The position numbers and the translations under genes are program-made. From a virus: a stretch of DNA of 40,902 nucleotides. Each line of letters starts with the position of its first letter. Position 1 is the stretch's first letter. The notes beneath the pieces were generated by a model. It saw only the letters and a list, made by a program, of their open reading frames with translations, had not been told where the DNA came from and searched no databases. The DNA is taken from positions 1 to 40,902 of IMG/VR virus record IMGVR_UViG_3300022591_000025, one strand, 5' to 3'. This document shows, piece by piece, positions 3,022 to 25,773 of this stretch.

Positions 3022-3510
3022 CTAATTCAAGCTGGACTGGTAGACCTGGATTCGCACGTCATAGGGCGCGCTGGCGTTGGTCGAGGTCTGGTAACTGATC
3101 GTGGTCGCATTCTTGGCGGCCAGGACAAACGTCACGGAGGTAAAACTTGCCGAGCCGAGCGTGCCGCAACTTGCCCCGCTGGTCACGGTTTGAAACGTGT
3201 TCGAGGGATCGGTGTAATGAAACACCAGCGTGATGCTGCCTCCGGCCGTGGCCGCGTCGCAGTAGTCGGTCGCCTTGACGAAAAACTGCGCCGTCGTCGC
3301 GCCTACTGTAAAGAGCGTGGTCTGGCCGATGCTCGAAGTCTGATTGAGTTGGCTGACCTGCGCCACTTGAACGGGCACACCAAGCCCGGTGATCGGCACG
3401 GGGGCAGGCACGGTTGGCAAATAGCTCTGGGCGTGGAGCAGCCAAAGCCCGGTGAATGCAAACGTCAGAACGGCGAAGTGAATCAGGGAAGTGCGAAGGA
3501 ATTTTTTCAT
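3022..3510 (-). CDS. Exported beta-rich protein, fibre-associated
   Basis: A 162-residue protein with a clear Sec signal peptide: basic start MKKFLR, hydrophobic core to about residue 25, probable cleavage after LHA at residue 27 leaving Gln28. The mature part is Ser/Thr-rich with alternating hydrophobic residues, probably a beta-sandwich. It has two Cys about 36 residues apart that could form a disulphide after export. It starts one base after the stop of the 848-residue fibre gene, suggesting that the two products act together. No named family is recognised. Confidence 0.75.
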   Translation of the reverse strand: MKKFLRTSLIHFAVLTFAFTGLWLLHAQSYLPTVPAPVPITGLGVPVQVAQVSQLNQTSSIGQTTLFTVGATTAQFFVKATDYCDAATAGGSITLVFHYTDPSNTFQTVTSGASCGTLGSASFTSVTFVLAAKNATTISYQTSTNASAPYDVRIQVYQSSLN

Positions 3511-3511
3511 G

Positions 3512-6058
3512 TCAGTTCACGATGAGGTAGTCGTAGCACGAAGGATTGACGGCAATCGTCGGCATGGTAAGGGTGAAAGATACGCCCGCAGATTTCGAAA
3601 GCAGGGTGATGGTCGGAACGAGCGTCGGAGCGGTATTGCAGGTCACGGAAAGCCGAGTGCTTTCTGCCGCGGTTGGAGTAATGAAGATTTCGCTGTTCGC
3701 GGTGACGGCCGTGGTACTCACCACGCAAGTTCCAGTCGAAGCCGTCACCGAGCAGGAGAACGCGCCCGCCGACGCCGAGCCGCAAGCCACCAGCGATGGA
3801 TTCGCCGCCGAGCCGTTGGCTGCACAATTAGTCAGACTCTGCAGTTCATAGGCTTGAACCGCTCCCGTGTTGTTGAAGGTTGGGGCGGTGGTTCCATCTC
3901 CGGCGAGACCGGTGTCATTCATGCAAACGATGTTGTATTGTCCTGTCCCTGTGTAAGCAGTTCCGAAAGCAGGAGCAACTTCGTTTGCTGCTGTCATAGT
4001 GCCGATTAGTCCCGTACTTGAGGGCGACCCTCCGGAGGCGGTACGCCAAACCTGTACCGCACTCCAGCCCAACGTGCCCCACGCCTGGGTGGAGTTGAGG
4101 CAAATAATTTCATAATTGGTTGCGTTGAGCGTGGCTGCGCCGCCTGTCAGTGTGCTAGTGGGAGAAACCGCAGTCTGATTGCCGTTTCCATCTAAAGCCA
4201 CCAATGCATAGGAATAGTGAGTCGAGCCGGAGTCATAACCGGAAAGCGCGGGCGCGGTGGGGGCAGTCAGTTGAGCGGTTCCCACGCTGCCTTTAACGAC
4301 AGGCGATCCTAAGATGGCGAGTGGCGCAAGTTGTGAAATAGCAAGACCACCGACGTAAGTCGTACCTTCAATGAAAACTTTCCCATGGGTGGGGTCATAC
4401 GTTGAGATATTCCCTTGCAACCACATATCCCAGCTTGCGGCGCTATTCCCATAGTCTTCAGAATAAACACCCACGTTTGAGGCGAAAGTGGATGCCGTAA
4501 ACGGATAACTCGTTGCCGGGACTGCGTAAAGTGCCCTCCCTCTCGCCGCAGTATCGCCTCCGACGTTAAGCGCTTGTCCTAGAACGCCAATAAAGGTGTC
4601 TCCGCCCAGGTTTGTATTGGGGGATGCAATTCCTTGAAGCCCGGCAAAAATAGCGTTCCCAGATCGGGTTATGCTGCCCCGTTCGCCCCAGCCTGAAACA
4701 CCCACAACTTGAGCGGTTCCATTTGAACCGCCGTTTAAAACAGGAGTGCCCCCAGCGGCATTAGCCACGCCTCGAATCGCTCCCATCGACATTTCAATGC
4801 CGTTCAGGGTTGCACTCGAAAGGTTTAGATTCTCCACGTAAAGCGATTGTTGTTGTCCCAATGTTCCAACTAAAGCAGCCGGTTCTATAAACTCGATTTG
4901 CTCCCCGAACACATTCGAGGTTCCACCGCTTTGCTGGTAGATATTGAACGCGCCATTTAAAGCACCGGCATCATTGACACCCGAAACGTTGACGATGATA
5001 GGACGGCAAAATTCCAAAAATCCATTAGTGTATCCGGTGATCAACTCCGCCTGATTCACGCCAAATAGCGAATTCCAGGTTTTGCTTATATCCTGCTGCC
5101 AAGCGTCGGGCACGTTTCCCGGTGGGCACGTGGAAGCGTTTGCGGGCGTGGGATAAATGCCAGTGGTATCGGAAGTTGGGGGAGCCGCGCCAACTGCGTA
5201 AGTCTGCATGACGCAATTGCCGGTGATATGCACGCAGGCCGAGTACTTTTGCGTCGATGTGGTTGTGCCGTTGTAGACCGTGTAGGTGGTACCGGGTGGC
5301 AAAGAGGGAGCGGTGACAATCAGACTGCAAGAAGAACCTGAAGTGCAATTTGTTCTAAGGGGGGTACCTTGCACAAGCGACGGATAAGATTCGCCGGTTG
5401 CGGTGCTGATCGTAATTTGAGTAAAGACGCCGGAATTGTAAATGAAACTACCGCCGGTTTGTGCATCCGTGAGCGTGACTTGGGGAGCGTAAATTCCCGC
5501 TCCCCCCAAGCCGTACCAGTTCGTGTTGCTGGTGATCTGGCCGTAGCCGCTGGTCGCATCCGGCGTCAGAGAGGCGGGAAGACCGACGGCCATCGCTGCT
5601 GTGGTGTTCGTGCCGGTAGTGAGCGCCGAAAAAGCCAAACTGGTTACCGGCGCTCCCCCTAAAAGATTCCCGGCCACAACCGTGGAAGCATTCAGCCAAA
5701 CGGTTGCCGTTCCCGAACTGAAAGAAGTGACGCAGAGAAGGAATGTATCGCCCGCGGCCACCGCCGAGGTATAGGAGCCCGCCGCGGTGATCGTCGCTTG
5801 CGAGGTTTGCGAGCCGTAAGGCGTAACACTGGAGTTGTCGGCCGTCTGGCCTTGGATGGAGATTTCCGGCTGCAAGGTCATACTGAACGTGCCTTTGACC
5901 TTGATCCCAATCGTCGCTTGCGCGGTCGTTGAAATCTCGGCACACTGATTGGCGGCGGTGAGAACGAACGGGCCGGCCTTTGATTGCGAAAAGACGGGCG
6001 GACCGAGCGCGAAACAGACGAGCAGCAAAAAGACACAACGGCGAAAAAGCAAGCGCAT
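3512..6058 (-). CDS. Large exported fibre or adhesin-like protein
   Basis: An 848-residue protein with a short signal peptide (MRLLFRR, hydrophobic core, probable cleavage after VFS at residue 24, Gln25 next). The mature protein is Gly/Ser/Thr-rich and beta-structured. The middle contains irregular Asn/Gly-rich stretches typical of fibres or spikes. About residues 600-720 hold a fibronectin-like segment (SYALVALDGNGNQT region). The last 110 residues form a Cys-containing beta domain (NCAANGSAANPS, VSCNT-like) that I associate with acidobacterial proteins and their phages. It sits between the tail fibre with the head-binding-like domain and the endolysin, the usual tail-fibre position. Receptor binding is inferred; the export signal is unexpected for a virion part. 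Confidence 0.75.
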   Translation of the reverse strand: MRLLFRRCVFLLLVCFALGPPVFSQSKAGPFVLTAANQCAEISTTAQATIGIKVKGTFSMTLQPEISIQGQTADNSSVTPYGSQTSQATITAAGSYTSAVAAGDTFLLCVTSFSSGTATVWLNASTVVAGNLLGGAPVTSLAFSALTTGTNTTAAMAVGLPASLTPDATSGYGQITSNTNWYGLGGAGIYAPQVTLTDAQTGGSFIYNSGVFTQITISTATGESYPSLVQGTPLRTNCTSGSSCSLIVTAPSLPPGTTYTVYNGTTTSTQKYSACVHITGNCVMQTYAVGAAPPTSDTTGIYPTPANASTCPPGNVPDAWQQDISKTWNSLFGVNQAELITGYTNGFLEFCRPIIVNVSGVNDAGALNGAFNIYQQSGGTSNVFGEQIEFIEPAALVGTLGQQQSLYVENLNLSSATLNGIEMSMGAIRGVANAAGGTPVLNGGSNGTAQVVGVSGWGERGSITRSGNAIFAGLQGIASPNTNLGGDTFIGVLGQALNVGGDTAARGRALYAVPATSYPFTASTFASNVGVYSEDYGNSAASWDMWLQGNISTYDPTHGKVFIEGTTYVGGLAISQLAPLAILGSPVVKGSVGTAQLTAPTAPALSGYDSGSTHYSYALVALDGNGNQTAVSPTSTLTGGAATLNATNYEIICLNSTQAWGTLGWSAVQVWRTASGGSPSSTGLIGTMTAANEVAPAFGTAYTGTGQYNIVCMNDTGLAGDGTTAPTFNNTGAVQAYELQSLTNCAANGSAANPSLVACGSASAGAFSCSVTASTGTCVVSTTAVTANSEIFITPTAAESTRLSVTCNTAPTLVPTITLLSKSAGVSFTLTMPTIAVNPSCYDYLIVN

Positions 6059-6082
6059 AGCGAGTTCCTTTCTGAAAATGAT

Positions 6083-7603
6083 TTAGTTGCTGAGAACCGG
6101 AGTCACCGCGAGAAACGTCGGCGCGGCGGGCGAGAACGTAAAGAGGCCGCTGTTAGCACTAGCAGTCGAACTGACGTTGCACTGGGCTTGCACAGTAAAA
6201 GTGGCGACGGCGCCAGCCGCATAAGTGGCGCTCGAAACTTCGGAGGCCGACAATCCGACATAGCCTGAACCGTTCGAATCTTGGCCGCTCAACGCGAAGG
6301 CACGGCTATTGGTGGTATCGATGACTTCCGCCGCGCACGCATTTGGACCCGTCGTCATCCACAGGCCATAGCGCACGTCGGCGCGGTAAGTTCCGGCGGC
6401 GGCTGGAAAGGTCACCGATTCGCTGAGCACGATGGTTTGCGTCGAGACCGTCGCGTTGACAATCGTCGTTGTGCGTTGGGGCGGGAAATTTGGACCGCTC
6501 CCGGTACAGGTCGTCGTTGCGCCGTGATTCGCGTCGGTGCAGAGTGGCAGAGCCGTCCCCGCGCCTATGGTGCCTGAGGTAAGCAGGCTGGTATCGCTGC
6601 CTTGCGTGGCAGTCTGCGCCGTGCCGCCGTTCAGGATGAAACTTGTATTCGCTTTCAAGGTCGTAAAAACGCCCGTGTTCGGCAAAGTGAACCCGATGGT
6701 GCCCGGCGTATCCCAATCGAAGCCTTCGAGCAGGTTGGAATTCAAGTTCAATACTTCGACGTTCGAGGCAACGACCAAAGGCGGAGTCGGACTGAGCACA
6801 GTCGAAATGAATTGTCCGGTCGAGGTGACGTTCCCCGTGGCTGAGATGGCGCCGGTGTCGATGGCCGGACCGTTGCCGATCACGCATGGCCCGACTGCGG
6901 TCGCGTTCACGCCGTCATAGAGAAATTCCTGAGTCGTAGTCTGATTCGCCGCTGAGCCGATGGTGCAGCCGCCCACGGAATTCGCAGGCCAGGAGAACGT
7001 GTGACCTCCAGAGGCATCTTGAGTAATCTGGAAAAAGATCACGCTCGGCGGAGTGATGCCGACAAAGCTCAAGGGCTGAGCGCTGGCGTTCCCGGTCAAA
7101 AGAAGTTCGAAGAGTTGGCTTTGGGCAGAGACGATGAAGATGGGAGTCGTCGAATAGGTGACGATGGTGGTCAGAGTAGTCGAGCCGCCGCCCAATCCAT
7201 TGACGGTGTAGAGGGTCGTCCCGCTTGAGCAATTCGTGCCGCCGGCGGTCATCACTTTGTAGGTGTAGGCGACGCCGGCCTGAAGCCAGATTTCCGCCGT
7301 TCCGCCCGCCGACAAGATCACCGGATTCGAATTCAGCGTCGTCCCGGTGTAGTCGGTGTAAGTCCCTAAAGGCGTTGTGGATGCGACTTGGTAGGTGAAA
7401 ACGCAGCCAAAGGCATTCGGAACGCCGTCTTGGGTGTAGGAGACAAATTGCGGCCAGGGGGAAATCACCACGGCGGTCTGGGCAGAGCAGAAAGTGACAA
7501 AAAAGGTCAGAATGACGAAAAGTGTCAGTAACCACACAAACAGGCGAGTAACTGCCCGTAAGTGGTGTGGACGGAGAGGGGTAGAAGCGGGAAAATTGGT
7601 CAT
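6083..7603 (-). CDS. Tail fibre/spike with head-binding-like domain and signal peptide
   Basis: A 506-residue protein. Residues 1-41 form a basic then hydrophobic leader ending FCSA before Gln42, a Sec signal. Residues about 50-135 resemble the N-terminal attachment domain of podovirus tailspikes: WPQF, a G-V-N-A turn, TPLGTYTDYTGTT, NPVILSAGGTAEIWLQAG and YKV. A beta-rich shaft follows, then a C-terminal sandwich domain (about 375-500) that may bind carbohydrate. It follows the gp16-like ejection gene and precedes the large fibre. The upstream side is unusual: its ATG (7601-7603) is one base from the ATG of a divergent plus-strand gene. Confidence 0.8.
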   Translation of the reverse strand: MTNFPASTPLRPHHLRAVTRLFVWLLTLFVILTFFVTFCSAQTAVVISPWPQFVSYTQDGVPNAFGCVFTYQVASTTPLGTYTDYTGTTLNSNPVILSAGGTAEIWLQAGVAYTYKVMTAGGTNCSSGTTLYTVNGLGGGSTTLTTIVTYSTTPIFIVSAQSQLFELLLTGNASAQPLSFVGITPPSVIFFQITQDASGGHTFSWPANSVGGCTIGSAANQTTTQEFLYDGVNATAVGPCVIGNGPAIDTGAISATGNVTSTGQFISTVLSPTPPLVVASNVEVLNLNSNLLEGFDWDTPGTIGFTLPNTGVFTTLKANTSFILNGGTAQTATQGSDTSLLTSGTIGAGTALPLCTDANHGATTTCTGSGPNFPPQRTTTIVNATVSTQTIVLSESVTFPAAAGTYRADVRYGLWMTTGPNACAAEVIDTTNSRAFALSGQDSNGSGYVGLSASEVSSATYAAGAVATFTVQAQCNVSSTASANSGLFTFSPAAPTFLAVTPVLSN

Positions 7604-7604
7604 T

Positions 7605-7970
7605 ATGAAACCCTTATTGGTCGCGATTCTCGGTGCAGCATTTTTCGTCGGCGGCTCGAATCTGGCGAATGCGCAGGCCTCAACGGAACATCCGAAAGGA
7701 AGTTACGATGGCATCACCGTGATCATCAACCGAGCTGAAATCAGCAGCAACGGTAAATTGGTGGTTGTAACTGCTCACAACATTGCCGATCAAAGCGAAT
7801 TCGTTCTTGTTTGCGAAATTGCGGGCGGCTATTGCGCGATGCCGCGCATTGGCTCGACGTACCGCGTCATCAGCGTCGTTGATCAAGCGACCGAAGCTTG
7901 GGGCCTTGTTCGTCTTCCGACTAAGAAATTGACCAGCATCTTTACGCTCGCTTGGGCCGGTGCCCAGTGA
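7605..7970 (+). CDS. Exported small protein, plus-strand moron gene 1
   Basis: A 121-residue protein on the strand opposite to the surrounding late genes. The signal peptide is clear (MKPLL, hydrophobic core, probable cleavage after ANA at residue 23, Gln24 next). The mature part is a compact beta-rich domain of about 95 residues with two Cys nine residues apart that could form a disulphide in the periplasm. No strong Shine-Dalgarno is visible and its ATG lies one base from the divergent fibre ATG. Such lone, inverted, exported genes in phage late regions are typically morons that alter the host surface, for example superinfection exclusion; here that is inference only. Confidence 0.65.
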   Translation: MKPLLVAILGAAFFVGGSNLANAQASTEHPKGSYDGITVIINRAEISSNGKLVVVTAHNIADQSEFVLVCEIAGGYCAMPRIGSTYRVISVVDQATEAWGLVRLPTKKLTSIFTLAWAGAQ

Positions 7971-8182
7971 CCGATTCCATCTGCTACGAACTGGTCAACG
8001 AAACTCCCCGCGAAGTCTGGAAGTGTTCAGGAGCCTGCAAGCGTTTCCGGCATCGCTCGGTGCGGCCTGGCATCCTGCCCGCAATCTGCTGCGGAGTTCC
8101 GGCGCGCCTGTTCGACCGGTATTCACAGCCGGAAATCGTAAACATTTCCGAACCCATCGTTTCGCGCCCGGTCACTGAGTAA
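7967..8182 (+). CDS. Small Cys-containing protein, moron gene 2
   Basis: A 71-residue protein starting with GTG at 7967, which overlaps the stop of the previous gene as GTGA, so the two look coupled. It contains four to five Cys (WKCSGACK, then a CC pair) and is otherwise basic. It ends at 8182, overlapping the 3' end of the convergent gp16-like gene by 11 bases. No family is recognised. An alternative frame over the same bases is open but lacks a coupled start. Confidence 0.45.
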   Translation: MTDSICYELVNETPREVWKCSGACKRFRHRSVRPGILPAICCGVPARLFDRYSQPEIVNISEPIVSRPVTE

Positions 8183-9926
8183 CTTTCACCGGCGGCATCC
8201 GCCGCACCATGATCGGAATTCTTTTCACTCCTGCTCGTTCTGCGGCAATCGCCCGGGCCCGGCCATCCACGGCAATGATGTTGTTATCGGCGTCTCGGGT
8301 TTCCATCACCGGCTCCGGCACTTCGCCCGCCTTGTAGCGGTCTGCGAGCTTCTGCACAAATTGTTCGGTTTGTTCCGGGCTCATTCCCCGCGTCTGTTCG
8401 CGACCCTCCGCCAAACTTTCCGTGTCCACGCCCCAGCGCTTCGTCAACATCGCGGGATCGGCGGTGGTCATGGCTCCGCCTTGCGGAACTTTCAATTGAT
8501 CGAGCGACTGCTGAAGGATCGACGTGAGATCTTGCGCGCCCGCCTGCGCTTTCGGAATCACTTCGCCTTGCGCGTTTTGCATCTCGGCGGGCTTGACCGC
8601 ATTACCATTCTTGCGCACCAAGGGATTGTTGTTTCGGATTTGCTTGGTCCAGGCGCTGCCTTGCGAGTCGGCATCTTCAAAGGCTTTCACCTGATCGGGC
8701 GTCACTTCACCGTGAGTGTAGCTCTGACCATTGTTGGTAATGGCGGTGAATTCTTTGGCGGCGGGATCGTACTTGTAGCCTTTGAGGACACTCGATTCGA
8801 CGGGCGTAAATCCTTCTGGCAATTTTCCAGCGGCCACAGCCTGCGCACTCGCCTGATTTCGCAGAGAGACGCCGCGCACTAACGGCTGACCACCAAGCGA
8901 CTCATTTAGTGCCTGCTCGACTTTCGCGGGCGTAGCGGCGGGCGCGGCGTTCTGGTTCGCGGCTACAACGTCGGAGAATTCTTTCGCGCCGGTAGTGGGA
9001 TCGGTGACGACGGAGCGAACAGGATTCTCCGCAGTTCCAGGCGGCCCTTGATAGGTCGCGCCTGGGCCTTGAAAAGCGGCGGGAAGTTTGGCAGGCGCGG
9101 CTTCAGGAACGGGCGCGGCTTCAGGAACGGTTTCTACGGTTGCGGCTTTCGTTTCCGCCGTCGCTTTCGCGGCTGCTTCGGTTCCTGCCTTGTAAACATC
9201 GGCGGCCACGTCGCCCACATAGGGAATCCGCCGAATAGCCGCTACAGGCAGTTTCTTCGCTGCTGCCCTGATCCCCGCCCGCAGCGATGGATTAGCGGCA
9301 ATATCGGAGACGACTTCAGGCGTGGCGGCTGCCATCTTGCCGACTTTATTGATGGCCGATCCCGCGGCGGCTATCCCTGCAACCTGTCCGGCAGCCCCGC
9401 CTACGTCGCCAGTTCCCGCTTGTCCACCGATTCCTGCCGCCGCCGGACCCGCAACAGGCAACCCGGATGCGACCGCATGACCAAAAGCCTCGGTGTAGTT
9501 GCCTTTATCGAAAGCATCGACCGCGCGCGCCGCTTCCTGATGCATGGGATCGGCCACGAACTTTTTCAGAGTGGAGTTTTCCCCGGCGGCCCAGTTCGGA
9601 TTGCTGGCTAAATCCTTGGCCAGACTGCCAACACTTGAAATCGTTCCCTTGAATCCGTTCCAAGCATTGCGCGCCACGTTCCCTGGAGTGAAACCATAAT
9701 ATTCGGGAATGCCTTGCGGCTGCTCTTCGATGGGTTGAATAGTGCCGCCTGCCTGCACTGCGGCTTGAGTTTGATCGGCTGGAACGTACCGGATGGATTT
9801 ATCGGGAGCGGCGAAGCGCACCGCAGGCTTGCCACCATTCGAGACAGCATTGTGCATCTGCTCGTAAGGCACATCCCGCAAGGTACCCTGGGGATCGAAA
9901 ATCGGAACTGTGGGCGCGCTGCTCAT
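8172..9926 (-). CDS. gp16-like ejection protein with KTSC and ParB-like C-terminal domains
   Basis: A 584-residue protein in the position and size class of P22 gp16 (about 609), an internal protein ejected with the DNA. Residues 1-70 carry two short repeats of the kind seen at the start of podovirus internal proteins (IFDPQGTLRDVP, VPADQTQAAVQAGG). Residues 80-270 are Ala/Gly-rich helical with an apolar stretch (about 150-205) that could insert in membrane. Residues 376-433 match the KTSC domain (SSVLKGYKYD, then YTHGEV, AFEDADSQGSAW). Residues about 530-580 resemble the ParB/sulfiredoxin fold (AVDGRARAIAAERAG). Start and upstream stop overlap as ATGA at 9923-9926. Confidence 0.75.
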   Translation of the reverse strand: MSSAPTVPIFDPQGTLRDVPYEQMHNAVSNGGKPAVRFAAPDKSIRYVPADQTQAAVQAGGTIQPIEEQPQGIPEYYGFTPGNVARNAWNGFKGTISSVGSLAKDLASNPNWAAGENSTLKKFVADPMHQEAARAVDAFDKGNYTEAFGHAVASGLPVAGPAAAGIGGQAGTGDVGGAAGQVAGIAAAGSAINKVGKMAAATPEVVSDIAANPSLRAGIRAAAKKLPVAAIRRIPYVGDVAADVYKAGTEAAAKATAETKAATVETVPEAAPVPEAAPAKLPAAFQGPGATYQGPPGTAENPVRSVVTDPTTGAKEFSDVVAANQNAAPAATPAKVEQALNESLGGQPLVRGVSLRNQASAQAVAAGKLPEGFTPVESSVLKGYKYDPAAKEFTAITNNGQSYTHGEVTPDQVKAFEDADSQGSAWTKQIRNNNPLVRKNGNAVKPAEMQNAQGEVIPKAQAGAQDLTSILQQSLDQLKVPQGGAMTTADPAMLTKRWGVDTESLAEGREQTRGMSPEQTEQFVQKLADRYKAGEVPEPVMETRDADNNIIAVDGRARAIAAERAGVKRIPIMVRRMPPVKVTQ

Positions 9927-11404
9927 TGATGTTTCGGCATCGCATCCCAGCTAAATGCGCCTGCCTTCGGATTCGCCGTATTCTGTTGAATCGGTTGCGT
10001 CGGCTTCGCTCCCAGCCGTCCCTTGATCGCGTCGATGTCGGCCTGATAGGACTGGTGGCGATTGGCCATGTCCTGCTTCAGTGTGTTCACCACGGCGAGA
10101 GTGGCCGACATGGGCAGGTTGCCGTCGATCACATCCTGCGCTTCTTTTTTCTGCGAATCACTCAACACGCCGGATCCGGTAGCGGAGCCCAGCACTTTCG
10201 CGACTTCGGTGGCCGCCGTTTCCCGCGCGGCCTTGAGCGCCGCCATGTTGTCGGTACCAATCATGCTGCCGGTGATCATGCGCAGCGGGACGTTGGCGAA
10301 GCGTGCGCCTAAATCGGGAATCTTCGCTGCGGTTTGCGCGTAGAGATCGAGATTGCGCAACGCCGTGCCCTCGAAGGCGTTCATCACGTCGAACTGTTTC
10401 TGTACCTGTTTCAGCGCGCCGGTATCCGCCTGGAAAGTGGCTTTATTCGAAGCGAGATTTTGATCGGGATGAAGTTCGGCGGAACGCTGAATGATGGCAG
10501 CGGTTGTGCCGGGAGAACGGGCGAAGCCGGAAGGAAGCGAACCGTCAGTCGAGTAGCGCTCGGCAGCCTGATCGATGGCTGATCCTTTCAGCATGTTCCC
10601 CATCACCATCGCCATGGGGGATTGCTTGGCTTTCCAGGAGAGAAAGTCTGCTGGACCTTGGCCGGGATGCTTTTGCAAATAGTCGGCCATCTCCGCCTGA
10701 TCGACCGGCAGGCTGCCTTGCTTGGTCTCTCCGGTTTTGACGTTGATGAGCGTGCCCGGCCCGGCTGGCTTCCAATTCTCCTGTTCGGTTTTTGCGGTGT
10801 CCTGTGCTTCCTTGAAAATCTGCTGCTCGGTTTTGAAGCCGTTCAGGTAAGCCGGAAGTTGTTGGCGGGCGGCTTGCGGGTTTTGGGCGGCGAGTTGAGC
10901 GAGTTGCTGGCCATGCGCCACTTCATCGGGACGCAAGAATCCAGCCTGTCCCAAGTCGGTGATCTTTGAGTTAAGGTGATCGGCCAAGGAAGCATCGTCG
11001 GTGTCCATGGCCGATTGCAGCGCGCCGATCGCGGCATCGTGCCGCTTAAGGTAGGTATCGATATTTTTACTGCCGCTGGTGGCGTCGCGTTCGGCAATTT
11101 GAGAAGCGGTGTCTTTCAGTTGAAGTAAATGCTGCTGGGTCGCGGTTTGTAATTGTCCGGAGCCGCCATTTTTCGCAATTAAGCCGGGAATATCGTCTGG
11201 AGTGTGTTTGTCGGAGTTGTAGGCAGTCATCGCCTTGGTGAGCGCATCTTGATCCGCGAATTGCCGCTTTTGCGCTTCGATCTGCTGCTGCTGTAATTGC
11301 TGCTGGCCGGGAGCCATGGCCTGCGCCTGCTGCATCTGCTGCTGGGATTGCGCGGTTTGTTGCTGCAGCGCGGCCACGCGGGCATACTCCGCCGCCTGAT
11401 TCAT
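9923..11404 (-). CDS. gp20-like ejection protein, Gln-rich (probable AUC start at 11464)
   Basis: From the first standard start (11404) it encodes 493 residues; P22 gp20 is about 471. The N-terminal 50 residues are an extremely Gln-rich helix and the rest is almost all helical, as expected for an ejectosome component that crosses the host envelope. The ATG at 11404 has no Shine-Dalgarno. The frame is open further upstream to an ATC at 11464 preceded by AAGGAG with six-base spacing. Starting there adds 20 residues (STIPAPNIAELGGQ...) that look like a normal phage N-terminus. I therefore suspect a rare AUC start. It overlaps the gp16-like gene by four bases. Confidence 0.75.
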   Translation of the reverse strand: MNQAAEYARVAALQQQTAQSQQQMQQAQAMAPGQQQLQQQQIEAQKRQFADQDALTKAMTAYNSDKHTPDDIPGLIAKNGGSGQLQTATQQHLLQLKDTASQIAERDATSGSKNIDTYLKRHDAAIGALQSAMDTDDASLADHLNSKITDLGQAGFLRPDEVAHGQQLAQLAAQNPQAARQQLPAYLNGFKTEQQIFKEAQDTAKTEQENWKPAGPGTLINVKTGETKQGSLPVDQAEMADYLQKHPGQGPADFLSWKAKQSPMAMVMGNMLKGSAIDQAAERYSTDGSLPSGFARSPGTTAAIIQRSAELHPDQNLASNKATFQADTGALKQVQKQFDVMNAFEGTALRNLDLYAQTAAKIPDLGARFANVPLRMITGSMIGTDNMAALKAARETAATEVAKVLGSATGSGVLSDSQKKEAQDVIDGNLPMSATLAVVNTLKQDMANRHQSYQADIDAIKGRLGAKPTQPIQQNTANPKAGAFSWDAMPKHQ

Positions 11405-11464
11405 GGGAGCTTGCGCGATCTGGCCGCCGAGTTCGGCGATGTTAGGTGCTGGGATAGTTGAGAT

Positions 11465-11472
11465 GGTATACT
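11465..11472 (+). promoter_or_regulatory. Possible extended -10 promoter of an HNH gene
   Basis: TGG followed by TATACT (11467-11472) on the plus strand matches an extended -10 element (5/6 to TATAAT). No clear -35 is present. The predicted start of transcription falls within a few bases of the HNH ATG at 11482, giving a leaderless message. The same bases form the spacer between Shine-Dalgarno and ATC of the opposite-strand gene, so the resemblance may be accidental. Confidence 0.3.
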
Positions 11473-11481
11473 CCTTAGCCG

Positions 11482-12027
11482 ATGGCTCCGAAGATCATCG
11501 ACTTAACCGGAAAACGCATAGGTCGTCTGCTGGTGTTGCGGCGGCATTTGCCCATCATTCCACAAAGACCGAAATGGATATGTCTCTGCGATTGCGGCAA
11601 AGAAACTGTTGTAGAAGGCGGCGATTTGCGGCGTAATCCCAACGCTCCGAAGCGACATCGACCCACGCAAAGTTGTGGTTGCCTGATCCGGGAAATTCTT
11701 GCGACTCATACTGAATCGTGCAAAGGAAAGCCAAGTCCGCGCCGCACTCACAACAAACGCCAGACCCGCGAATACTCGAGTTGGTATCATGCGCGTCAGC
11801 GATGCCGGAATCCGCGAAATCGCGCCTGGAAGCGATATGGCGGTCGCGGCATCCGCTTTTGCGAGCGATGGAACGACTTTAAAGTGTTTTTGAAAGACAT
11901 GGGCCCACGCCCAGTGAATACAACTCTGGATCGTTTTCCCAATCCAGACGGCAACTATGAGCCCGGAAATTGCCGCTGGGCAACGTGGCCTCAGCAGGCG
12001 CGGAATCGCCGAAAAAGGGCTCATTAG
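11482..12027 (+). CDS. Homing-type endonuclease-like protein (zinc knuckle + RYGGRGI family)
   Basis: A 181-residue protein on the strand opposite to the late genes. The N-terminal part (IDLTGKRIGRLLV, then CLCDCG and SCGC) is the zinc-binding front common in phage homing-type proteins. The C-terminal part has the family pattern RYGGRGI, FCERW, LDRFPNPDGNYEPGNCRWAT and ends with a basic helix. This family resembles HNH/AP2-type selfish endonucleases that spread between phages. It sits exactly between the gp7-like and gp20-like genes, and its stop overlaps the stop of the gp7-like gene. Cleavage activity is inferred. Confidence 0.75.
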   Translation: MAPKIIDLTGKRIGRLLVLRRHLPIIPQRPKWICLCDCGKETVVEGGDLRRNPNAPKRHRPTQSCGCLIREILATHTESCKGKPSPRRTHNKRQTREYSSWYHARQRCRNPRNRAWKRYGGRGIRFCERWNDFKVFLKDMGPRPVNTTLDRFPNPDGNYEPGNCRWATWPQQARNRRKRAH

Positions 12028-12758
12028 AACAGCCCTCCAAAAAGCGCGCCAATTCCGCCAGCGCCAGTGTTTGCCCCACTGACCGCGCCACCGATTCCAC
12101 CGGCCATGTTCGAGTAGGCGTTGGCCGAGCCAAGAATGCCTTGCGCGGTAGCCGCCGCCGCGTTGTTGATTTGCGTGGCCTGCTGCTGGCCGCCGGTCAA
12201 ATCGACGTTCGCCAGATTCTGCGCGCCCTGCTGCCCGAGTTGGCCCATTTCTGAAGTCGAAGAGAGTCCGGTGTTGGTTCCCCCTTGCAGCGACTGATAG
12301 TTCGCGTTGTACGTATTCAGAGCGTTGTTATACGTCTGCTGGTAGGCGCTCTGGCCGAGATTCTGGCCGTACTGCTGCAGGGCTTTGCCAGTGTTGCCGG
12401 ACATGAGCGTCCCGTTCGCCGCCGCATTCTCGTTGAGTGCGTTCGTCCCCTGTTGTAACTGAAACTGATAGCCGGGAGTTTGCTCGGCTTGCTGTAGAGT
12501 GGGAGCGGTGAAGCCTTTCTGGAGAAGGCTGTTGAGGCCACTTGCCGCAGTCTGGCCGACTTGCTGGTAAGGCTGTTCTGCGGCTGTATTCGCAGCCGTT
12601 GCGCTGGCCTGCGAGTTTTGCGCAGCCTGCTGATTTTGCAGCTCAAGGTTTTGTGCCTTTTGCGCGGCCTGCGATTCGACTTGCCCAGCACTCGACGCAG
12701 CATTCGCGCCCAGGATTCCGCCCGCGATGGAACTGCCGATTGATGCGATTGCGCCCAT
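12024..12758 (-). CDS. gp7-like ejection/pilot protein
   Basis: A 244-residue protein, close to the 229 residues of P22 gp7 and in the same gene order. It starts with a glycine-zipper-like apolar helix (residues 1-25), continues with a long Gln/Ala/Asn-rich helical region, and ends with a Gly-rich apolar tail (about residues 215-244). This composition fits a membrane-interacting ejection protein. It is separated from the gp20-like gene by the inserted HNH gene at 11482-12027. The assignment is by synteny, size and composition. Confidence 0.7.
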   Translation of the reverse strand: MGAIASIGSSIAGGILGANAASSAGQVESQAAQKAQNLELQNQQAAQNSQASATAANTAAEQPYQQVGQTAASGLNSLLQKGFTAPTLQQAEQTPGYQFQLQQGTNALNENAAANGTLMSGNTGKALQQYGQNLGQSAYQQTYNNALNTYNANYQSLQGGTNTGLSSTSEMGQLGQQGAQNLANVDLTGGQQQATQINNAAAATAQGILGSANAYSNMAGGIGGAVSGANTGAGGIGALFGGLF

Positions 12759-15851: not shown

Positions 15852-16496
15852 ATGAGCGTCGAAAAGTGGCTCCCAGTGCCGGGTTTCGAGGGTTTGTATG
15901 AAGTAAGTAGTCATGGTCGAGTGCAGAAGATTGCGCCTTGGTGCGATGGAGTCAATCACTACGCTACCCGGCTCTTGCCGGTGGATCGGGCATGGTCAGG
16001 CCATTTCCGCGTGAATTTGACCCGCCCAGGACGTTGGCAGAAAGCGAAATCCGTTCATCGATTGGTGATGCATGCCTTCGCCCGCCCGCCAAAACCCGGC
16101 GAAGTGGTGAACCACAAAGACGGCGATCCGGGAAACAATCGCTTCGAGAATCTCGAATACACCACTGTGCAAGGCAACACGCTGCACGCAATTCGCGTTC
16201 TCGGTCGAAGCACAGGAAAAAAAGGATCGAAGCATCCTCATGCAAAACTCGACGAAAGCGAGGTGCTCGAAATTATCGAACGATTGAAACAAGGCGAAGA
16301 ACATCTGCACATAGCAAAAGATTTTGGCATCTGCTATGGCACGATCAGCAACATCGCTCGCAACTCCACTTGGAAACATCTTTCCCGCGAGGCAATGCCA
16401 GATCGCCGATTCAATTACTGCCAACCCGGCTCCGCCGTGCAAATTCCACCGAACCAGCGCCCTAAGGGAAGCAAACTTTCTCAATTGAAATCCTAG
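15852..16496 (+). CDS. HNH homing endonuclease (NUMOD4 + HNH + helix-turn-helix)
   Basis: A 214-residue plus-strand protein. Residues about 5-25 form a NUMOD4 DNA-binding motif (WLPVPGFEGLYEVSSHGRV). Residues about 68-110 form an HNH nuclease core (VHRLVMHAF, VNHKDGDPGNNRFENLEYTT). Residues about 128-165 look like a helix-turn-helix (HAKLDESEVLEIIERLKQG...). This is the standard layout of free-standing phage homing endonucleases. It is inserted between gp10-like and gp4-like genes without disrupting either. No good Shine-Dalgarno is seen. Confidence 0.9.
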   Translation: MSVEKWLPVPGFEGLYEVSSHGRVQKIAPWCDGVNHYATRLLPVDRAWSGHFRVNLTRPGRWQKAKSVHRLVMHAFARPPKPGEVVNHKDGDPGNNRFENLEYTTVQGNTLHAIRVLGRSTGKKGSKHPHAKLDESEVLEIIERLKQGEEHLHIAKDFGICYGTISNIARNSTWKHLSREAMPDRRFNYCQPGSAVQIPPNQRPKGSKLSQLKS

Positions 16497-17435: not shown

Positions 17436-17482
17436 TTCAGCGCGAGGCGGTCAGCAGCCGTCAGCCCCGCCAATTCCTTCAG

Positions 17483-18030: not shown

Positions 18031-18996
18031 CTAGTAAAACGCCCAGTACGGTCCTTGGGCCGTGGTGTAGGCCGTTGGAGCCGTGATCGTGGCCGGGATG
18101 GTTCCGAAGGTCTGCCCGGTATAGATCTGGGTCAGAAGTCCGGCGTTGCCATCGGCGGTCACCACCAAGTTGAGCGTGTCGGTGCTGTTCGCGGCTTGCG
18201 AGCAGCCGAAATACCGCGCCGGTCCCACCGCGAAGAACGGTACAGTGAAGGCGTAGCTCTGGTAGATGCTCGCATTGCCAGTCGTTGCCGCTCCTGCGGT
18301 GGCGCTGTGGGCAAGCAAAATCCCCGCGGCGTCATAGAGAGCGACTAGGCGATTGCCGTTTCCGACCGTCAACCCATTCAGAAGGCGAAGTCCGGTCAAC
18401 AGTTTGTTGAAGGGAAGTTCGATTTCCGAACAGTACATGCTGGTGTTCGTGGTCGCGGTCGAAGTGCCCACGCCGGTCAAGATCGCGCCGCCTGAAGGCG
18501 GCGAGTAAATCACCGTCTGCGTGACGGGCGCGGGCACGGTATTCCCGGTGACCCAGACTCCGCCCAAGCAATCCGAAATCAACGAATTGTCGATGTCGAT
18601 ATAGGGCAGGACGCTGGCTTGGCTGCGAGTGCAGCTCCCGGACGGATATCCAATCGGATTCTGAAAATAGAAATACGACGGAGGCCCGAACCACACGATT
18701 GCCCCATTCGCATGAGTGCTGACTCGCGAAGTGGGCTGGCCGCGGGTGACTTGAACCGTGGTTGAGGTGACCACGTTCACAAAATCCGCTTCGCCATCGA
18801 CGTAGATCATCGTGTTATTGGCAGTGATGCCCACGGTCGAGGTGAGGCGGAAGGTGTTCAGTTGAGAGCTGGTCGAAGTGACGGCCGCCGACAATGTAGT
18901 CGAGGGCACGATGGTTTGGCCGAAGGCCGGGACCGCTACGATGAGCGCCAGAGCCAGCAGCGACGAAACTGCGATGGAATTGAAGATGTTTTTCAT
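18031..18996 (-). CDS. Exported protein encoded next to the coat gene
   Basis: A 321-residue protein starting at 18996 with an AGGGAGA Shine-Dalgarno. Residues 1-26 are a textbook Sec signal (MKNIFNS, hydrophobic core, VPAFG, then Gln27). The mature N-terminal domain (about 30-110) has repeated strands with MIYVDGEADFVNVV, VQVTRG and ANGAIVWFGPP, a beta domain I associate with virion decoration proteins. The C-terminal domain (about 175-321) looks like a jelly-roll carbohydrate-binding sandwich (SMYCSEIELPFNKLLTGLR, AYTTAQGPYWAFY). It lies 64 bp after the coat gene, in the usual place of a head decoration gene, which makes the export signal surprising. Confidence 0.75.
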   Translation of the reverse strand: MKNIFNSIAVSSLLALALIVAVPAFGQTIVPSTTLSAAVTSTSSQLNTFRLTSTVGITANNTMIYVDGEADFVNVVTSTTVQVTRGQPTSRVSTHANGAIVWFGPPSYFYFQNPIGYPSGSCTRSQASVLPYIDIDNSLISDCLGGVWVTGNTVPAPVTQTVIYSPPSGGAILTGVGTSTATTNTSMYCSEIELPFNKLLTGLRLLNGLTVGNGNRLVALYDAAGILLAHSATAGAATTGNASIYQSYAFTVPFFAVGPARYFGCSQAANSTDTLNLVVTADGNAGLLTQIYTGQTFGTIPATITAPTAYTTAQGPYWAFY

Positions 18997-19060
18997 AGGT
19001 TTGTCTCCCTGAAATACTAAGTCAAAAAAGAACTTATTAAGTCGGGGAATTCTCCTTTTC

Positions 19061-20323
19061 CTAGGCTCCAAGTAGGCCGACCGCGGCGTTGTCCTGGTAG
19101 AGATTGCCGAATCCGCCGACGGTGTCGAAGCGGTTGATCTGCAAGCTGTGGTAGGCGTCCCAAGCCTTGACGAAGCGCACCGGAATTCCAGTGGCCTTGT
19201 CTTCGGCCTGCGAACGGGCTTCGACCGCTTTCGGCAGATAGAAGCGCATCCCGACAATCGCGAAGGCGAAAGGCGTGAGGGCGATTCCCACCGTGCCGGT
19301 CGCGCCATTCGGATTCGGCGTGCCAGGCCAGAGCGTCAGGGCCGCACCGTTTGCCGGCAGGGCATCCACGTTCTGATACTGGCTGTGGCCGTCGGGCGAA
19401 TTCGCATCCGGCCCGTAGATCGCGGGCAGGATGGTGATGGTGTCGGCGCCGCCAGTCAGGGTGAAGTCCTGGGTGACGGTGAAGGTTTGCTGGGTCAGCG
19501 GGCCGGGTGGGCGCCGCGAACGGGGGTTGACGAAATTCACGTTCGCAATCCCGATCTTGTCGCCCTGGTGAATGGTGTCGCCCACCGTTCCGGTGATGAT
19601 CAGAGAGGTTCCGCTCTGTCCGGCGCCGGTGACTGTAACCGCTCCCGCCCAGGTTCCGGCAGTCTGCGAGTACAGGTTCTGCTCTTCGAAAACGTCGAAG
19701 GTTTTCAGCTTGCCCATCGACCCTTCCTTGAAGGCTTCGGTGATCGCGTCCGCGGGCTGAAACAAAGACGTGACCGGAGTGTTGATGGAGTTGGTCTGCA
19801 TCGAAGACGAAATCAAGGCAGCGCGTTTCTTTGAGAGGTACGATCCGGCTTTCTGGAGCAGCCGGGCGCGGGCCTGATCGAGAAACACGATGGAGGTGGG
19901 ATCGGTGCCGAGCGCGCCGACAATCTGCGAGCAGTTGTTCTTGGCGAACAATGCGGCGCGTGAATCCCATTCGTTCGCGAGCTGCACGCCGGCCGGGGCC
20001 AGGTACTGTTCGCGAATTTCCTCTTCCGACCGTTCGGCCTTGACCGCCGCTTCGTAATCGTCCCACTGGAAATCGATGCCAAAGGGCTCGTCCAATGAGA
20101 TGGTGGTCGAAATGCGGTTGATGCCTTGCGGGTTGTATCCGAGACCGTTCCGGATGGTGAACTGTTGCGGGAATTTGACCTGAATCGTGGTGCCTACTGC
20201 CCACGCCTTCTCGTAGTCTTTTTCCCAATCGTGATTGAAATACTCTGCGATCTTCAATGCGTTCTTGAGATTGCGCAGCACCTCCATGGAGATCCACGAG
20301 GTGTTCAGAAATAGGTTGGGCAC
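19061..20323 (-). CDS. Major coat protein, P22 gp5-like (HK97 fold)
   Basis: A 420-residue protein, close to the 430 of P22 coat. Typical features are the N-terminal helix region (ISMEVLRNLKNALKIAEYFNHDWE), the VGTTIQVKFPQQF strand, and a central beta-rich insertion (about residues 225-345) corresponding to the P22 I-domain. The C-terminus ends in the P-domain pattern GIPVRFVKAWDAYHSLQINRFDTVGGFG. It follows the scaffold gene by 14 bases. Coat and scaffold together imply a procapsid assembled without a separate protease. Confidence 0.85.
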   Translation of the reverse strand: MPNLFLNTSWISMEVLRNLKNALKIAEYFNHDWEKDYEKAWAVGTTIQVKFPQQFTIRNGLGYNPQGINRISTTISLDEPFGIDFQWDDYEAAVKAERSEEEIREQYLAPAGVQLANEWDSRAALFAKNNCSQIVGALGTDPTSIVFLDQARARLLQKAGSYLSKKRAALISSSMQTNSINTPVTSLFQPADAITEAFKEGSMGKLKTFDVFEEQNLYSQTAGTWAGAVTVTGAGQSGTSLIITGTVGDTIHQGDKIGIANVNFVNPRSRRPPGPLTQQTFTVTQDFTLTGGADTITILPAIYGPDANSPDGHSQYQNVDALPANGAALTLWPGTPNPNGATGTVGIALTPFAFAIVGMRFYLPKAVEARSQAEDKATGIPVRFVKAWDAYHSLQINRFDTVGGFGNLYQDNAAVGLLGA

Positions 20324-20337
20324 GGGTTATTTCCTCG

Positions 20338-21471: not shown

Positions 21472-21519
21472 GGGATTGTCCTTTTGGTTTTTGCGCTTAA
21501 CGCCGCGCGGGCGAAGGAA

Positions 21520-23721
21520 CTAAACTTGGGGCTGCGCTTGTGATTGCTGCGCCTGCTGTCCGGGCTGATTTTCGGCTTGCTGAGCCTGTAAAGTAGCCGT
21601 TTGCTGCGCTAACTCTTGCGCATGGTGATGATCCTGGGCTTGCATTCCGGCTTCATGCGCCGCCGAGTGATTTTCAATCCAGAATTCCTGATACATCTGC
21701 TGGCGCTCGGAGGCGGCCTGCGACTTGGCGGCGATTTCGGCGAGCAGCACCTTGATGTCGTTTGCCAACTGAGCCCTTTGGTTCTCGCCGTCTTCTTTCA
21801 TTTGCTGCAAGAGCAGTTTTGTTTGCTGTTCTAAAATCTTCCCGGCGTGCTCCATGTGCAGCGCTTGAGCCTCTTGCTGTACCTGCTGCAACTGCTGTTG
21901 CAGGGCTTGAATCGCGGCCTGGGCTTGCGGCGGCATACTGTTCGGATCGACTGGAGGCGGATCGAACACGTCGGCGATCTGCTTGCCAATGGGACCGAGC
22001 GTCGGACGCATCCGGATTCCGAGCGCGAACACTTTCGCCTGTGGAGTACCGGGCTGGGGCAAGTTGGCGATATTCTCAATCAGCGAATCGACAAATTCGT
22101 CCTGCTCTTCACGCTCCGATTGATAACTCGGCCCGGTCGAAATGGTCACGTCGAAATCGCCCTTGCCGGTGTGAAGGTGGCCAGCATCAAGGCCCTGAAC
22201 GTCGTAAGCGCCTTGATCGTCGAGCGGGTGAGAGGTATTTCCGACCAACTGCATCGTCGAGCGCTTCCCGTCCGGCTGCGAGATCGGCATTTCGCGCTGA
22301 GTGTCGAGAACCGGGGTGATCAGCTCGTTAATTTGCCAACCCATATTGTGCAGGAAGCCGTTCTCGTAGCGATCGACAAAGTGAAAGCTGCCGAGCGATT
22401 CCATGTCGTCGATTTTTTCGAGCGCGACGCCGGATTTCTGATTTCTGCGTTGGGCGGCATCGGGTAAGGGCGTGATTCCCATCCCGGCTTGAATGGCGCG
22501 GGCGGCGGCGTCTTTTGCGATTTCCCAAACTTGAAAGTTCGGCGTCCATTGCGGACGCTCGGGCGGCGGCAAGGGATTCTGCCCGGTGGCATCGACTACT
22601 GGGTCATATTGCAGGTAAGCGTGGGGAACCTTGGTGACTTCATCCCAGGCTTCCTTGTCCGATTCGAACTGACCTTTCGCGCCGACGAAGGGACTCTTCG
22701 GGATCTGCCCCGCTTCCTCGCATTCGCCAGACGCTAAGTAGTCGAGCAGCATCTGGGGATCGCGGGCGAAGCGCACCATCGACAAGAGTTGACGCTTGGC
22801 CGTCCCGCCTTCGGTTGTCCAGCGCTCTGGACCAAGACAGGAAATAATCGGAACGCGGCTGCCGTCCCAAGGAACTTTGTCAAGGATCTCCAAGCCGTTG
22901 GTCATGTACTGAAAAACTTTGGGGATCTCGACTTTGCGGTCGCGCTTGACTGTGCCAGCGAGGGCGTGCTCTTTCGCCAGCTTCCACTCGTCTTCGGTGA
23001 AAACGACCGGGCCTTTTTCGGTCTCGACTAAGAGTAAAGTCTTAAAACTGGACTGCACCTTCCAGTACTCCGCCCGCTGTACGTACTTCTCTTTGATCCA
23101 ATCGGTGATGGTCGAGTCATTCAGATCTTCGTCGGCAAAATCAGTTACGCGGGCTTTCGGATAGAGTTGCTTGAACTGTTTTTTCAGCATCAGTTCGAGG
23201 AAAAACCCGTCGGGGATGTCGCTGGCGTTCGGCTGTTTGTAGTAGGGCGAGAGTAGAACCGTGTCCGGATTCAGCACCGGCTTGATGAGGATTTCCATGT
23301 CGAACGAGGAATCGTCTTTGTACTCAGTGCGGATCACCGCGAAGCCGTAGCTGCGCTCGGTCATGGATTGGAACGCGCCAAGATAGACGGGCTGGGCCTG
23401 GGAGCGCTCTTCGATGCCCATAATCACCGCCGAGCGTCTCTCGGCATCCTGATCGGTCGCTCCGTTGCCTTTGGGGATGGCGGTGATGCCGCGCTTCGAC
23501 TTGCGGACGTTGCCGTTGACTTGCGCAAGGAACTGATTCAACTGGTCGAGATGGATGCAGGGGCGGCCGGAACCTTTGCGGGCGTCGCGGTCCTCGTCGG
23601 TCCATGGGCCTTCGGTCGAGATGGCGCGCATGTCGTCTTGCGCTTCATCGCGGATTTCGCGCCAGGCGTCCCGATAGTCTTGATAAGCGTCGCGAATTTC
23701 GTGGGGGGTGGGGTCGGACAT
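21520..23721 (-). CDS. Portal protein, P22 gp1-like
   Basis: A 733-residue protein, very near the 725 residues of P22 portal. The N-terminal third shows the family pattern (YQDYRDAWREIRDEAQDDM, GRPCIHLDQLNQFLAQVNGNVRKSKRGI, RSYGFAVIRTEYKDD), then the wing and stem regions. The C-terminal 130 residues form a Gln/Ala/Glu-rich helix like the P22 barrel, ending in a Gln-rich tail. It forms the dodecameric ring through which DNA is packaged and ejected. No Shine-Dalgarno is visible at the ATG at 23721. Confidence 0.9.
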   Translation of the reverse strand: MSDPTPHEIRDAYQDYRDAWREIRDEAQDDMRAISTEGPWTDEDRDARKGSGRPCIHLDQLNQFLAQVNGNVRKSKRGITAIPKGNGATDQDAERRSAVIMGIEERSQAQPVYLGAFQSMTERSYGFAVIRTEYKDDSSFDMEILIKPVLNPDTVLLSPYYKQPNASDIPDGFFLELMLKKQFKQLYPKARVTDFADEDLNDSTITDWIKEKYVQRAEYWKVQSSFKTLLLVETEKGPVVFTEDEWKLAKEHALAGTVKRDRKVEIPKVFQYMTNGLEILDKVPWDGSRVPIISCLGPERWTTEGGTAKRQLLSMVRFARDPQMLLDYLASGECEEAGQIPKSPFVGAKGQFESDKEAWDEVTKVPHAYLQYDPVVDATGQNPLPPPERPQWTPNFQVWEIAKDAAARAIQAGMGITPLPDAAQRRNQKSGVALEKIDDMESLGSFHFVDRYENGFLHNMGWQINELITPVLDTQREMPISQPDGKRSTMQLVGNTSHPLDDQGAYDVQGLDAGHLHTGKGDFDVTISTGPSYQSEREEQDEFVDSLIENIANLPQPGTPQAKVFALGIRMRPTLGPIGKQIADVFDPPPVDPNSMPPQAQAAIQALQQQLQQVQQEAQALHMEHAGKILEQQTKLLLQQMKEDGENQRAQLANDIKVLLAEIAAKSQAASERQQMYQEFWIENHSAAHEAGMQAQDHHHAQELAQQTATLQAQQAENQPGQQAQQSQAQPQV

Positions 23722-23736
23722 GGTTAAAATTTAGAA

Positions 23737-24598: not shown

Positions 24599-24695
24599 GA
24601 TATTCTTAGGTGGAGCGGGGAATGCTGAATCGAAAATTGGCGTGGCGACTATAGCGCTGGCCGCTGTAATTTTCGGTTAGTTGCGCCCCGCGTAG

Positions 24696-25118
24696 CTACT
24701 CTTCTTCTCTGCCTTCCGGCTCCGCCTTCTCTTCGTTGGCCACGTCATTTGCGGCGTGACCGAGAATTCCCAGGTGCTCGCCGATATGCTCCATCATGTC
24801 GCCGTGGGTTGCCGATTGACCCTTGGCGTCGAACGGATAAGTATGTTCGGTATTTTCCATGAACGCGCCCGACTTCGAGGCTTCGGTGGGCATCAAGTGA
24901 TGGTGAACGGTGTGGCCCGTGACTTCGTTTTTCGGGCCGCGGTGGACTTCGATTTCCATTCTGCGGATTGCGGGTTTCTTCATGGCGGAAGAGCCTTTCG
25001 TGTGATGGCCCAATGACGGGTCAGAATGAAGTTCTGAATTCATCTTCGCTTTTTGCCCGGCGGTGAGCGGCGAGCCGGACGATTCGAGATAACGAACTTG
25101 GCGCGGAGTCCAGGGCAT
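24696..25118 (-). CDS. Small His-rich hypothetical protein
   Basis: A 140-residue protein. The start MPWTPRQVRYLESSGSPLTAGQKAKM resembles the short basic N-terminal motif of many phage head-region proteins. The middle is His-rich (TVHHHLMPTEA, MEHIGEHLGILGH) and the C-terminus acidic. It lies eight bases after the exported gene at 25126. The function is unknown. Confidence 0.65.
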   Translation of the reverse strand: MPWTPRQVRYLESSGSPLTAGQKAKMNSELHSDPSLGHHTKGSSAMKKPAIRRMEIEVHRGPKNEVTGHTVHHHLMPTEASKSGAFMENTEHTYPFDAKGQSATHGDMMEHIGEHLGILGHAANDVANEEKAEPEGREEE

Positions 25119-25125
25119 AGCAAAC

Positions 25126-25773
25126 CTAGTTCGGATTTCCCTGACACTTCCAATCGACCACCGCCGTGTCGCTATTCACTGAGGACGTGGGCTGCAAGCC
25201 GGTGGTCGTCCGTTTCGACGAAAGAATCCCGGTGAGCGTGCCGGTGCCTGTCCAAGTCACGGTGCAGACCGGCGTCGAGTTGTAAGCTGTCGCAAACGTG
25301 ATTGCCGGACAAACCCCTGAACTCATGGTGCAGGTTCCATGAGTGTCGGCGAGCGCCAGCGTCACCCGGTACGGTCCAAAGCAAGCCGTCGAGTTCTGAA
25401 TGCAGACGGTGTAATCATATTTTCCCGCCGGAGCCCAGAATCCGATGTTACCTTGCGCATCGCCAGTTCCCTGACACGCCGACGGCTGCGGATCGGGAGT
25501 GTCTTGCGCGCCATTCGAGCAGGCCGCGCCCGCTGAGTTATAGGTGGTCGCGTAGTTGGTGCAGGGAACCTGATTCGCGGGCGAGTTACAGACGGCGAGA
25601 ATCGGGGAATTCGGCGGAACGTTCGCGACCAGGAAAGGCGTCGTGTAGGCGGAAGAGATCGATGGAAAAGAGACGGAGTAACGGACGTTCTGCCCGTGCG
25701 CGAAGGAGCAGGCAAGCAGGAGCAGCCAAAAGGTCAGGACGCCGACGAGGGGATGAGCAAAGAAGCGTTTCAT
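25126..25773 (-). CDS. Exported fibre-domain protein upstream of the portal gene
   Basis: A 215-residue protein from the ATG at 25773. The signal peptide is strong (MKRFFAHP, hydrophobic core, FAHG at residue 27, then Gln28). Residues about 40-125 resemble the fibre attachment domain seen in the tail fibre at 6083-7603, in a Cys-bearing form (ILAVCNSPANQVPC, ATTYNSAG, GNIGFWAPAGKYDYTV). The remaining 80 residues are beta-rich. It has nine Cys, which could pair after export. I associate this domain with acidobacterial secreted proteins. Its place before the portal gene is unusual for a fibre. Confidence 0.7.
   Translation of the reverse strand: MKRFFAHPLVGVLTFWLLLLACSFAHGQNVRYSVSFPSISSAYTTPFLVANVPPNSPILAVCNSPANQVPCTNYATTYNSAGAACSNGAQDTPDPQPSACQGTGDAQGNIGFWAPAGKYDYTVCIQNSTACFGPYRVTLALADTHGTCTMSSGVCPAITFATAYNSTPVCTVTWTGTGTLTGILSSKRTTTGLQPTSSVNSDTAVVDWKCQGNPN

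Follow-up and report, generated by a model that had tools for sequence, protein, structure and literature searches.

Predicted Sec signal peptides on the tailspike and fibre-like proteins of a podovirus suggest a two-compartment route of virion assembly

The DNA analysed here, IMG/VR virus record IMGVR_UViG_3300022591_000025 (a contig of 40,902 bases, referred to as the window), encodes a P22-type portal, coat, tail hub, scaffold, terminase, DNA ejection protein, endolysin and integrase, and belongs to a P22-like soil podovirus that is probably temperate because of its integrase gene. The guanine-cytosine (GC) content of the window is 57%. The closest relatives are environmental contigs, and only ~28% of the portal is shared with cultured phages. 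Six open reading frames (ORFs), F1 to F6, are intact at the coordinates in Table 1. Each product begins with an n-region of positive charge, which leads into a hydrophobic core and then into a small-x-small site that stands immediately before a glutamine (Gln). One of these, F2, is the putative tailspike, which suggests that part of the virion may be exported by the Sec pathway before it is assembled.

Signal peptides were called with a rule-based heuristic predictor of our own that ignores the residue at +1, except that proline is barred. The predictor recovered OmpA, MalE, LamB, PhoA, DsbA, Bla, OmpF and AppA and rejected two cytoplasmic proteins. A previous sequence-only reading of the window described Sec signal peptides in six products, each with Gln after the predicted cleavage site, and proposed a survey of the +1 residues in related phages. 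All six were called by the predictor with scores of 4.2-7.6, the cut falling before Gln in five and two residues earlier in F1, and homologues back four of the families (F1-F4). Only the mature halves were used as queries, so that the signal could not drive the matches, and 25, 18, 13 and 13 homologues of F1, F2, F3 and F4 were found, all with a signal peptide upstream, including two loci (L025 and L044) that the predictor missed and in which the signal is visible by eye. Signal and Gln are found in all 25 homologues of F1 and in the 13 of F3. The pattern is therefore wider than originally claimed, as the four families recur with signal and Gln throughout ~45 related IMG/VR loci.

The survey of +1 residues determined that homologues aligned with MAFFT share the Gln at the first mature position, where it is invariant in F1, F2 and F4 (12 rows in the F4 alignment) and present in 9/10 in F3. 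The codon alternates among homologues between CAA (33) and CAG (30), so it is the amino acid and not the DNA that is conserved. Identity is 38-45% in the signal peptides and 54-67% at the start of the mature part. The alignments were relied on since the raw count over all signal calls, with Gln in 44/91, is an underestimate resulting from a predictor that often cuts a few residues early; a count of 63/63 is circular, the sites having been picked at Gln, and was not used as evidence. No conserved ATG that could give a cytoplasmic form was found near the mature N-terminus or after the signal in F1-F3. The n-, h- and c-regions and the small-x-small site of Sec and signal peptidase I substrates are present by prediction and by conservation, and export, ending in disulfide formation, looks real.

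F2 is identified as the tailspike from its slot in the operon and its N-terminal domain. Residues 41-122 of the product, about the first 80 of the mature part, match the N-terminus of the 'tail spike protein' of Xanthomonas phage PBR31 (MT119766; 45% identity, E 3e-4, tblastn), whose N-terminal part is apparently a virion-binding domain (PMC10975493). The domain begins at residue 2 in PBR31 (MAVQIAPLP); in the window, 41 signal residues come before the same domain (CSA/QTAVVISPWP). In the solved tail complex of cyanopodophage Pan3 (PDB 9vyg), the F2 profile also matches the tailspike chains (E 0.003), and a low-confidence structure model matches the same chains by fold, which was used as support only. 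The order of ejection proteins, spike and lysis genes is the same in the window as in cultured podoviruses, and the F2 N-domain is conserved among homologues that differ in their C-terminal parts. A search of the window and its relatives for another copy of the spike domain, one lacking a signal, found none, so virions would otherwise be without this spike. The fibre-like character and the many cysteines (Cys) previously ascribed to several of the exported proteins are supported, and one of the six is, by sequence, the tailspike itself.

Spikes with and without the signal form two sets. In ten cultured relatives with the F2 domain, the domain starts no more than 18 residues from the initiator Met and no convincing signal was found from any in-frame start. 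Of 56 distinct F2-type loci from a wider IMG/VR scan, 37 have a signal (Gln at +1 in 36/37) and 19 were called without, nearly all of which begin directly with MASLSPxPKLQF or similar. In a tree of 65 spike N-domains (38 with signal and 27 without, leaving out L133, which is cut off by a contig end, and the doubtful L163) the label changes 2 times as compared to 21 for shuffled labels. A single origin of the signal in spikes is possible on this tree, which has few columns. Two alignment columns of the same 65 domains hold a Cys pair that is present in 37/38 of the signal-bearing domains and in 0/27 of the signal-less domains, a test that is independent of where the predictor places the cleavage site.

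The total number of cysteines follows the same division. The six mature window products all have even counts (Table 1). Among related phages, the mature exported proteins are 55 even to 9 odd (55/64, p 4e-9) and all others 121 to 134 (121/255 even); by non-redundant clusters the values are 36 to 6 (36/42, p 3e-6) and 81 to 85 (81/166). Cys content is 2.3% in the exported proteins vs 1.0% in the others. Both patterns are expected if the proteins fold in an oxidising compartment. Such evidence is correlational, and it comes from sequences of common ancestry; taken together, the parity and the pair that tracks the signal argue that export really happens.

F1 has a conserved N-domain of ~125 residues with 6 Cys and an exchangeable C-terminal part (short to >1,400 residues, in homologues of ~200-1608 residues), and its low-confidence model resembles tailspike domains. 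F3 has a weak C-terminal match to K1-lyase_C (PF24146, E 1.6e-4) that is under the family cut-off, and F4 has a tail-protein-like region (PHROG 1101 'tail protein', E 1.2e-6). The F4 ORF can be extended to 19308, but the ATG at 18996 is preferred as it has GGAG 8 nucleotides upstream and no overlap with the coat gene. F5 and F6 had no homologue among the related loci fetched, and their signals are those called by the predictor. In relatives, F3 follows F2 in most cases and F1 often follows F3, and some homologues carry pectate-lyase, hydrolase or carbohydrate-binding-like domains. No homologues of F1, F3 and F4 were found in cultured phages and none of F1 in plasmids.

We lean towards a reading in which F1-F5 are made as Sec pre-proteins, exported, processed, folded with disulfides in the periplasm and joined to virions at or after lysis. 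The tailspike F2, the fibres F1, F3 and F5 and the coat-adjacent F4 would each be exported, and cleavage by signal peptidase I would leave an N-terminal Gln that is probably cyclised to pyroglutamate. Heads with their tail hubs, which like the portal have no signal, would assemble in the cytoplasm. Holin and endolysin would then open the cell, and the waiting spikes would bind the tail hub through the N-terminal attachment domain, much as P22 tailspikes are able to attach to completed heads in vitro. The head, portal and tail hub are signal-less; if the spike is exported, spike and virion must meet after the membrane barrier breaks. In P22, heads can be joined to tail parts in vitro (Israel 1967, as cited in a passage of PMC3741392), which makes joining at lysis mechanically plausible. 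A 'new assembly route' had been one of several options in the sequence-only reading; it stands as a live option, strengthened by the identity of F2 and by the Cys evidence. Whether virions of this tailed-phage lineage are finished outside the cytoplasm, a cytoplasmic tailspike of the ordinary kind having acquired the signal together with the Cys pair on one or two occasions, is in our judgement evenly poised.

Several points weigh against such a route. We know of no tailed phage whose tailspike is exported by Sec and then becomes part of the virion, and a literature search, which was not exhaustive, found none. The virion membership of F1-F5 is inferred here from sequence, the signal peptides were called with a hand-made predictor rather than SignalP, and the structure models are of low confidence (predicted local distance difference test, pLDDT, of 63 and 52, the latter for F2). 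Spikes that must meet virions after lysis would also risk being lost by diffusion. The export and Cys evidence applies equally to a role in the envelope or outside the cell, in which late, disulfide-bonded proteins remove or mask the infected cell's own receptor, which would spare progeny from being caught on cell debris and keep other phages out. Receptor-blocking exported proteins are known in other phages, and the hydrolase, pectate-lyase or carbohydrate-binding-like domains of several homologues would suit this role. However, F2 keeps a virion-attachment domain that is 37-46% identical to those of signal-less spikes, it occupies the tailspike slot with no other such spike gene present, and the late-operon position and the C-terminal exchange are typical of receptor-binding proteins. 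Exported receptor-blocking or superinfection-exclusion proteins are also small and dedicated. We consider the envelope role unlikely, if still a serious competitor; the virion role is favoured because the attachment domain is kept and no other spike gene has it.

Dividing each protein between the envelope and the virion, for example by inefficient export or by release at lysis, would account for both the kept attachment domain and the export signal. It is improbable given that F1-F3 have no conserved ATG after the signal and that the Cys pair suggests the oxidised form is the functional form. The hydrophobic N-terminus could instead be a tail-anchoring or membrane-piercing helix retained on the virion protein, and, since the spike binds the tail through its N-domain, an added helix would indeed sit at the tail. 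A retained helix is very improbable, as the small-x-small site and Gln are kept at the junction while the remainder drifts, four unrelated families are built in this same way, and the Cys parity and pair indicate an oxidising compartment. We give almost no weight to an artefact in which start codons were misassigned or N-termini are hydrophobic by chance. The hand-made predictor and the clear Shine-Dalgarno-like match at only 27/63 starts would allow it, but the homologue data already contradict it, the signal being conserved in ~69 family homologues and 38 F2-type domains and absent in the signal-less set that shares this domain.

The assembly of tailed phages is assumed to take place wholly in the cytoplasm, a compartment in which structural disulfides are uncommon. 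If our reading is true, secretion lets a phage use receptor-binding proteins stabilised by disulfides, and a signal peptide in a metagenomic phage gene does not have to mean that the gene is auxiliary or host-derived. With export signal and Cys pair co-occurring in one tailspike lineage, and signal-less sisters beside it, two-compartment assembly can be tested directly.

The Q-rule, by which signal peptidase I substrates have Gln at +1, is presented as specific to Bacteroidetes in the papers on it, and Acidobacteria are unmentioned in the 2018 text (PMC5837995). In the window, Gln is at +1 in 6/6 exported-type proteins, the rule being that most exported proteins of a genome have it. In 350 kb of plasmid pACIX901 of Granulicella tundricola (Acidobacteriota), Gln follows 19/47 predicted signal peptides, or 31/47 when the site may move by a few residues, and is the commonest +1 residue. 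The strict and lenient counts are 7/25 and 11/25 in a Betaproteobacteria metagenome-assembled genome (MAG) and 2/12 and 3/12 in E. coli K-12. The phage families are far above all three. At the strict Granulicella rate (~40%) six of six would occur by chance with p ~0.004, and at the lenient rate (~66%) with p ~0.08, so the six proteins alone do not prove a special rule; it is the conservation across relatives that does so. The Q-rule may extend beyond Bacteroidota, and +1 Gln in a phage would be usable as a clue to the host only after Q-values have been established for phyla such as Acidobacteriota.

The +1 Gln bias proposed by the earlier reading therefore stood, as it is conserved across relatives, and its pointer to a Bacteroidetes-type host did not, given the Granulicella and Betaproteobacteria counts and the GC content. 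A Bacteroidota host was rejected: there is no direct evidence for it, GC is 57%, and +1 Gln is frequent in Acidobacteriota too. A genome scan for the host gave one match only, a contig (G001:C94; L087 and L088) binned in a Betaproteobacteria groundwater MAG, which comes from a related podovirus whose F2, F3 and F4 all bear signals; its composition fits the MAG (correlation 0.70, same GC), binning being no proof of host. The composition of the window correlates best with Acidisarcina, at only 0.62. Accessory domains were tried as a further route, and the choice-of-anchor D domains match Betaproteobacteria plasmids weakly, which is not decisive. The host is unproven and is probably non-Bacteroidota.

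Genes directly downstream of the tailspike in the cultured podoviruses PBR31 and Rhodoferax phage P26218_24 also encode predicted signal-peptide proteins. The occupant of the divergent F6 slot before the tailspike varies between phages, and in four related loci a small protein of receiver-like type (VFVLDDTEERL...VFLDHDL) takes its place. Twin-arginine-like starts (MERRRFLKLFG..., MNRRNFLSLLTAG...) are also seen in small proteins, encoded partly on the strand opposite the late operon. A homing-type endonuclease gene lies within the late operon, and a Cys-rich 341-residue protein, with no family match and no signal peptide at its ATG, is encoded between the terminase and portal genes and has a counterpart in several relatives.

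Table 1. Features of the window and of related or compared sequences (L numbers denote loci outside the window)
Feature	Coordinates	Strand	Remarks
F1	25126..25773	-	signal peptide 27 residues (25693-25773, AHG/Q); 10 mature Cys
F2, putative tailspike	6083..7603	-	signal peptide 41 residues (7481-7603, CSA/Q); 8 mature Cys; C-terminal part modular
F2 mature Cys26	7403..7405	-	first member of the Cys pair
F2 mature Cys84	7229..7231	-	second member of the Cys pair
F3, fibre-like protein	3512..6058	-	signal peptide 24 residues (5987-6058, VFS/Q); 16 mature Cys
F4	18031..18996	-	signal peptide 26 residues (18919-18996, AFG/Q); 4 mature Cys; directly after coat gene
F5, small fibre-like protein	3022..3510	-	signal peptide 27 residues (3430-3510, LHA/Q); 2 mature Cys; score 6.4
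F6, small exported-type protein	7605..7970	+	signal peptide 23 residues (ANA/Q); 2 mature Cys; score 7.6; divergent, back to back with F2
Endolysin (glucosaminidase)	2452..3015	-	PF01832 E 3e-15; adjoins F5 on its 3' side; no signal peptide called
Ejection-protein genes	8172..12758	-	directly upstream of F2
Ejection protein	12024-12758	-	named by PHROG 598
Ejection proteins	9923-11404, 8172-9926	-	assigned from position and synteny
Tail hub / head closure protein (Hc3)	13576..15789	-	PHROG 578 E 1.8e-72; no signal peptide
NUMOD4/HNH homing-type endonuclease	15852-16496	+	adjoins tail hub gene
P22-type coat protein	19061..20323	-	PF11651 E 9e-25; no signal peptide
P22-type portal protein	21520..23721	-	PF16510 E 1e-93
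341-residue protein	26057-27082	-	8 Cys
Terminase large subunit	27704..29221	-	PHROG 2 E 9e-34
Integrase	29807..30367	-	PF00589 E 5e-12
PBR31 orf035	L048:8154-8963		predicted cut before Ala; annotated 'putative structural protein'
Rhodoferax phage P26218_24 gene	L089:15489-15998		predicted cut before Gln
Receiver-like protein in F6 slot	L024:4988-5383, L029:7600-8019, L034:7997-8419, L087:6095-6493
Twin-arginine-like small proteins	L029:1-372 and 366-647	-
Twin-arginine-like small proteins	L015:2175-2459, L087:13217-13696
pACIX901 loci counted	L050, L052-L056, L058

Phage-encoded Q-rule proteins have been reported before and are not new here. Phages of P. gingivalis (proposed Nixviridae) have five Q-rule genes with functions unknown (PMC10367356), which share with the proteins of the window a Sec signal and Gln at +1; no Porphyromonas phage match was found when F1-F4 were compared to cultured phage records. 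By description the two sets differ, as here there are a putative tailspike and fibre families, Cys evidence and a signal-less sister group. The Q-rule of Bacteroidetes (PMC5837995) shares the +1 Gln of signal peptidase I substrates, whereas here it occurs in phages of a probably non-Bacteroidota host and is also frequent in Granulicella. Receptor-blocking and superinfection-exclusion proteins are likewise Sec-exported phage products; F2 is instead a putative tailspike with a virion-attachment domain. Compared to the tailspikes of P22-like podoviruses such as PBR31 and Pan3, F2 shares the homologous N-terminal attachment domain, the slot after the ejection proteins and the variable C-terminus, but differs in the signal peptide exactly before the domain and in the Cys pair that is absent in all 27 signal-less relatives. 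Synthesis free of an export signal, a usual rather than defining trait found in all ten cultured tailspikes read, is the trait that F2 lacks.

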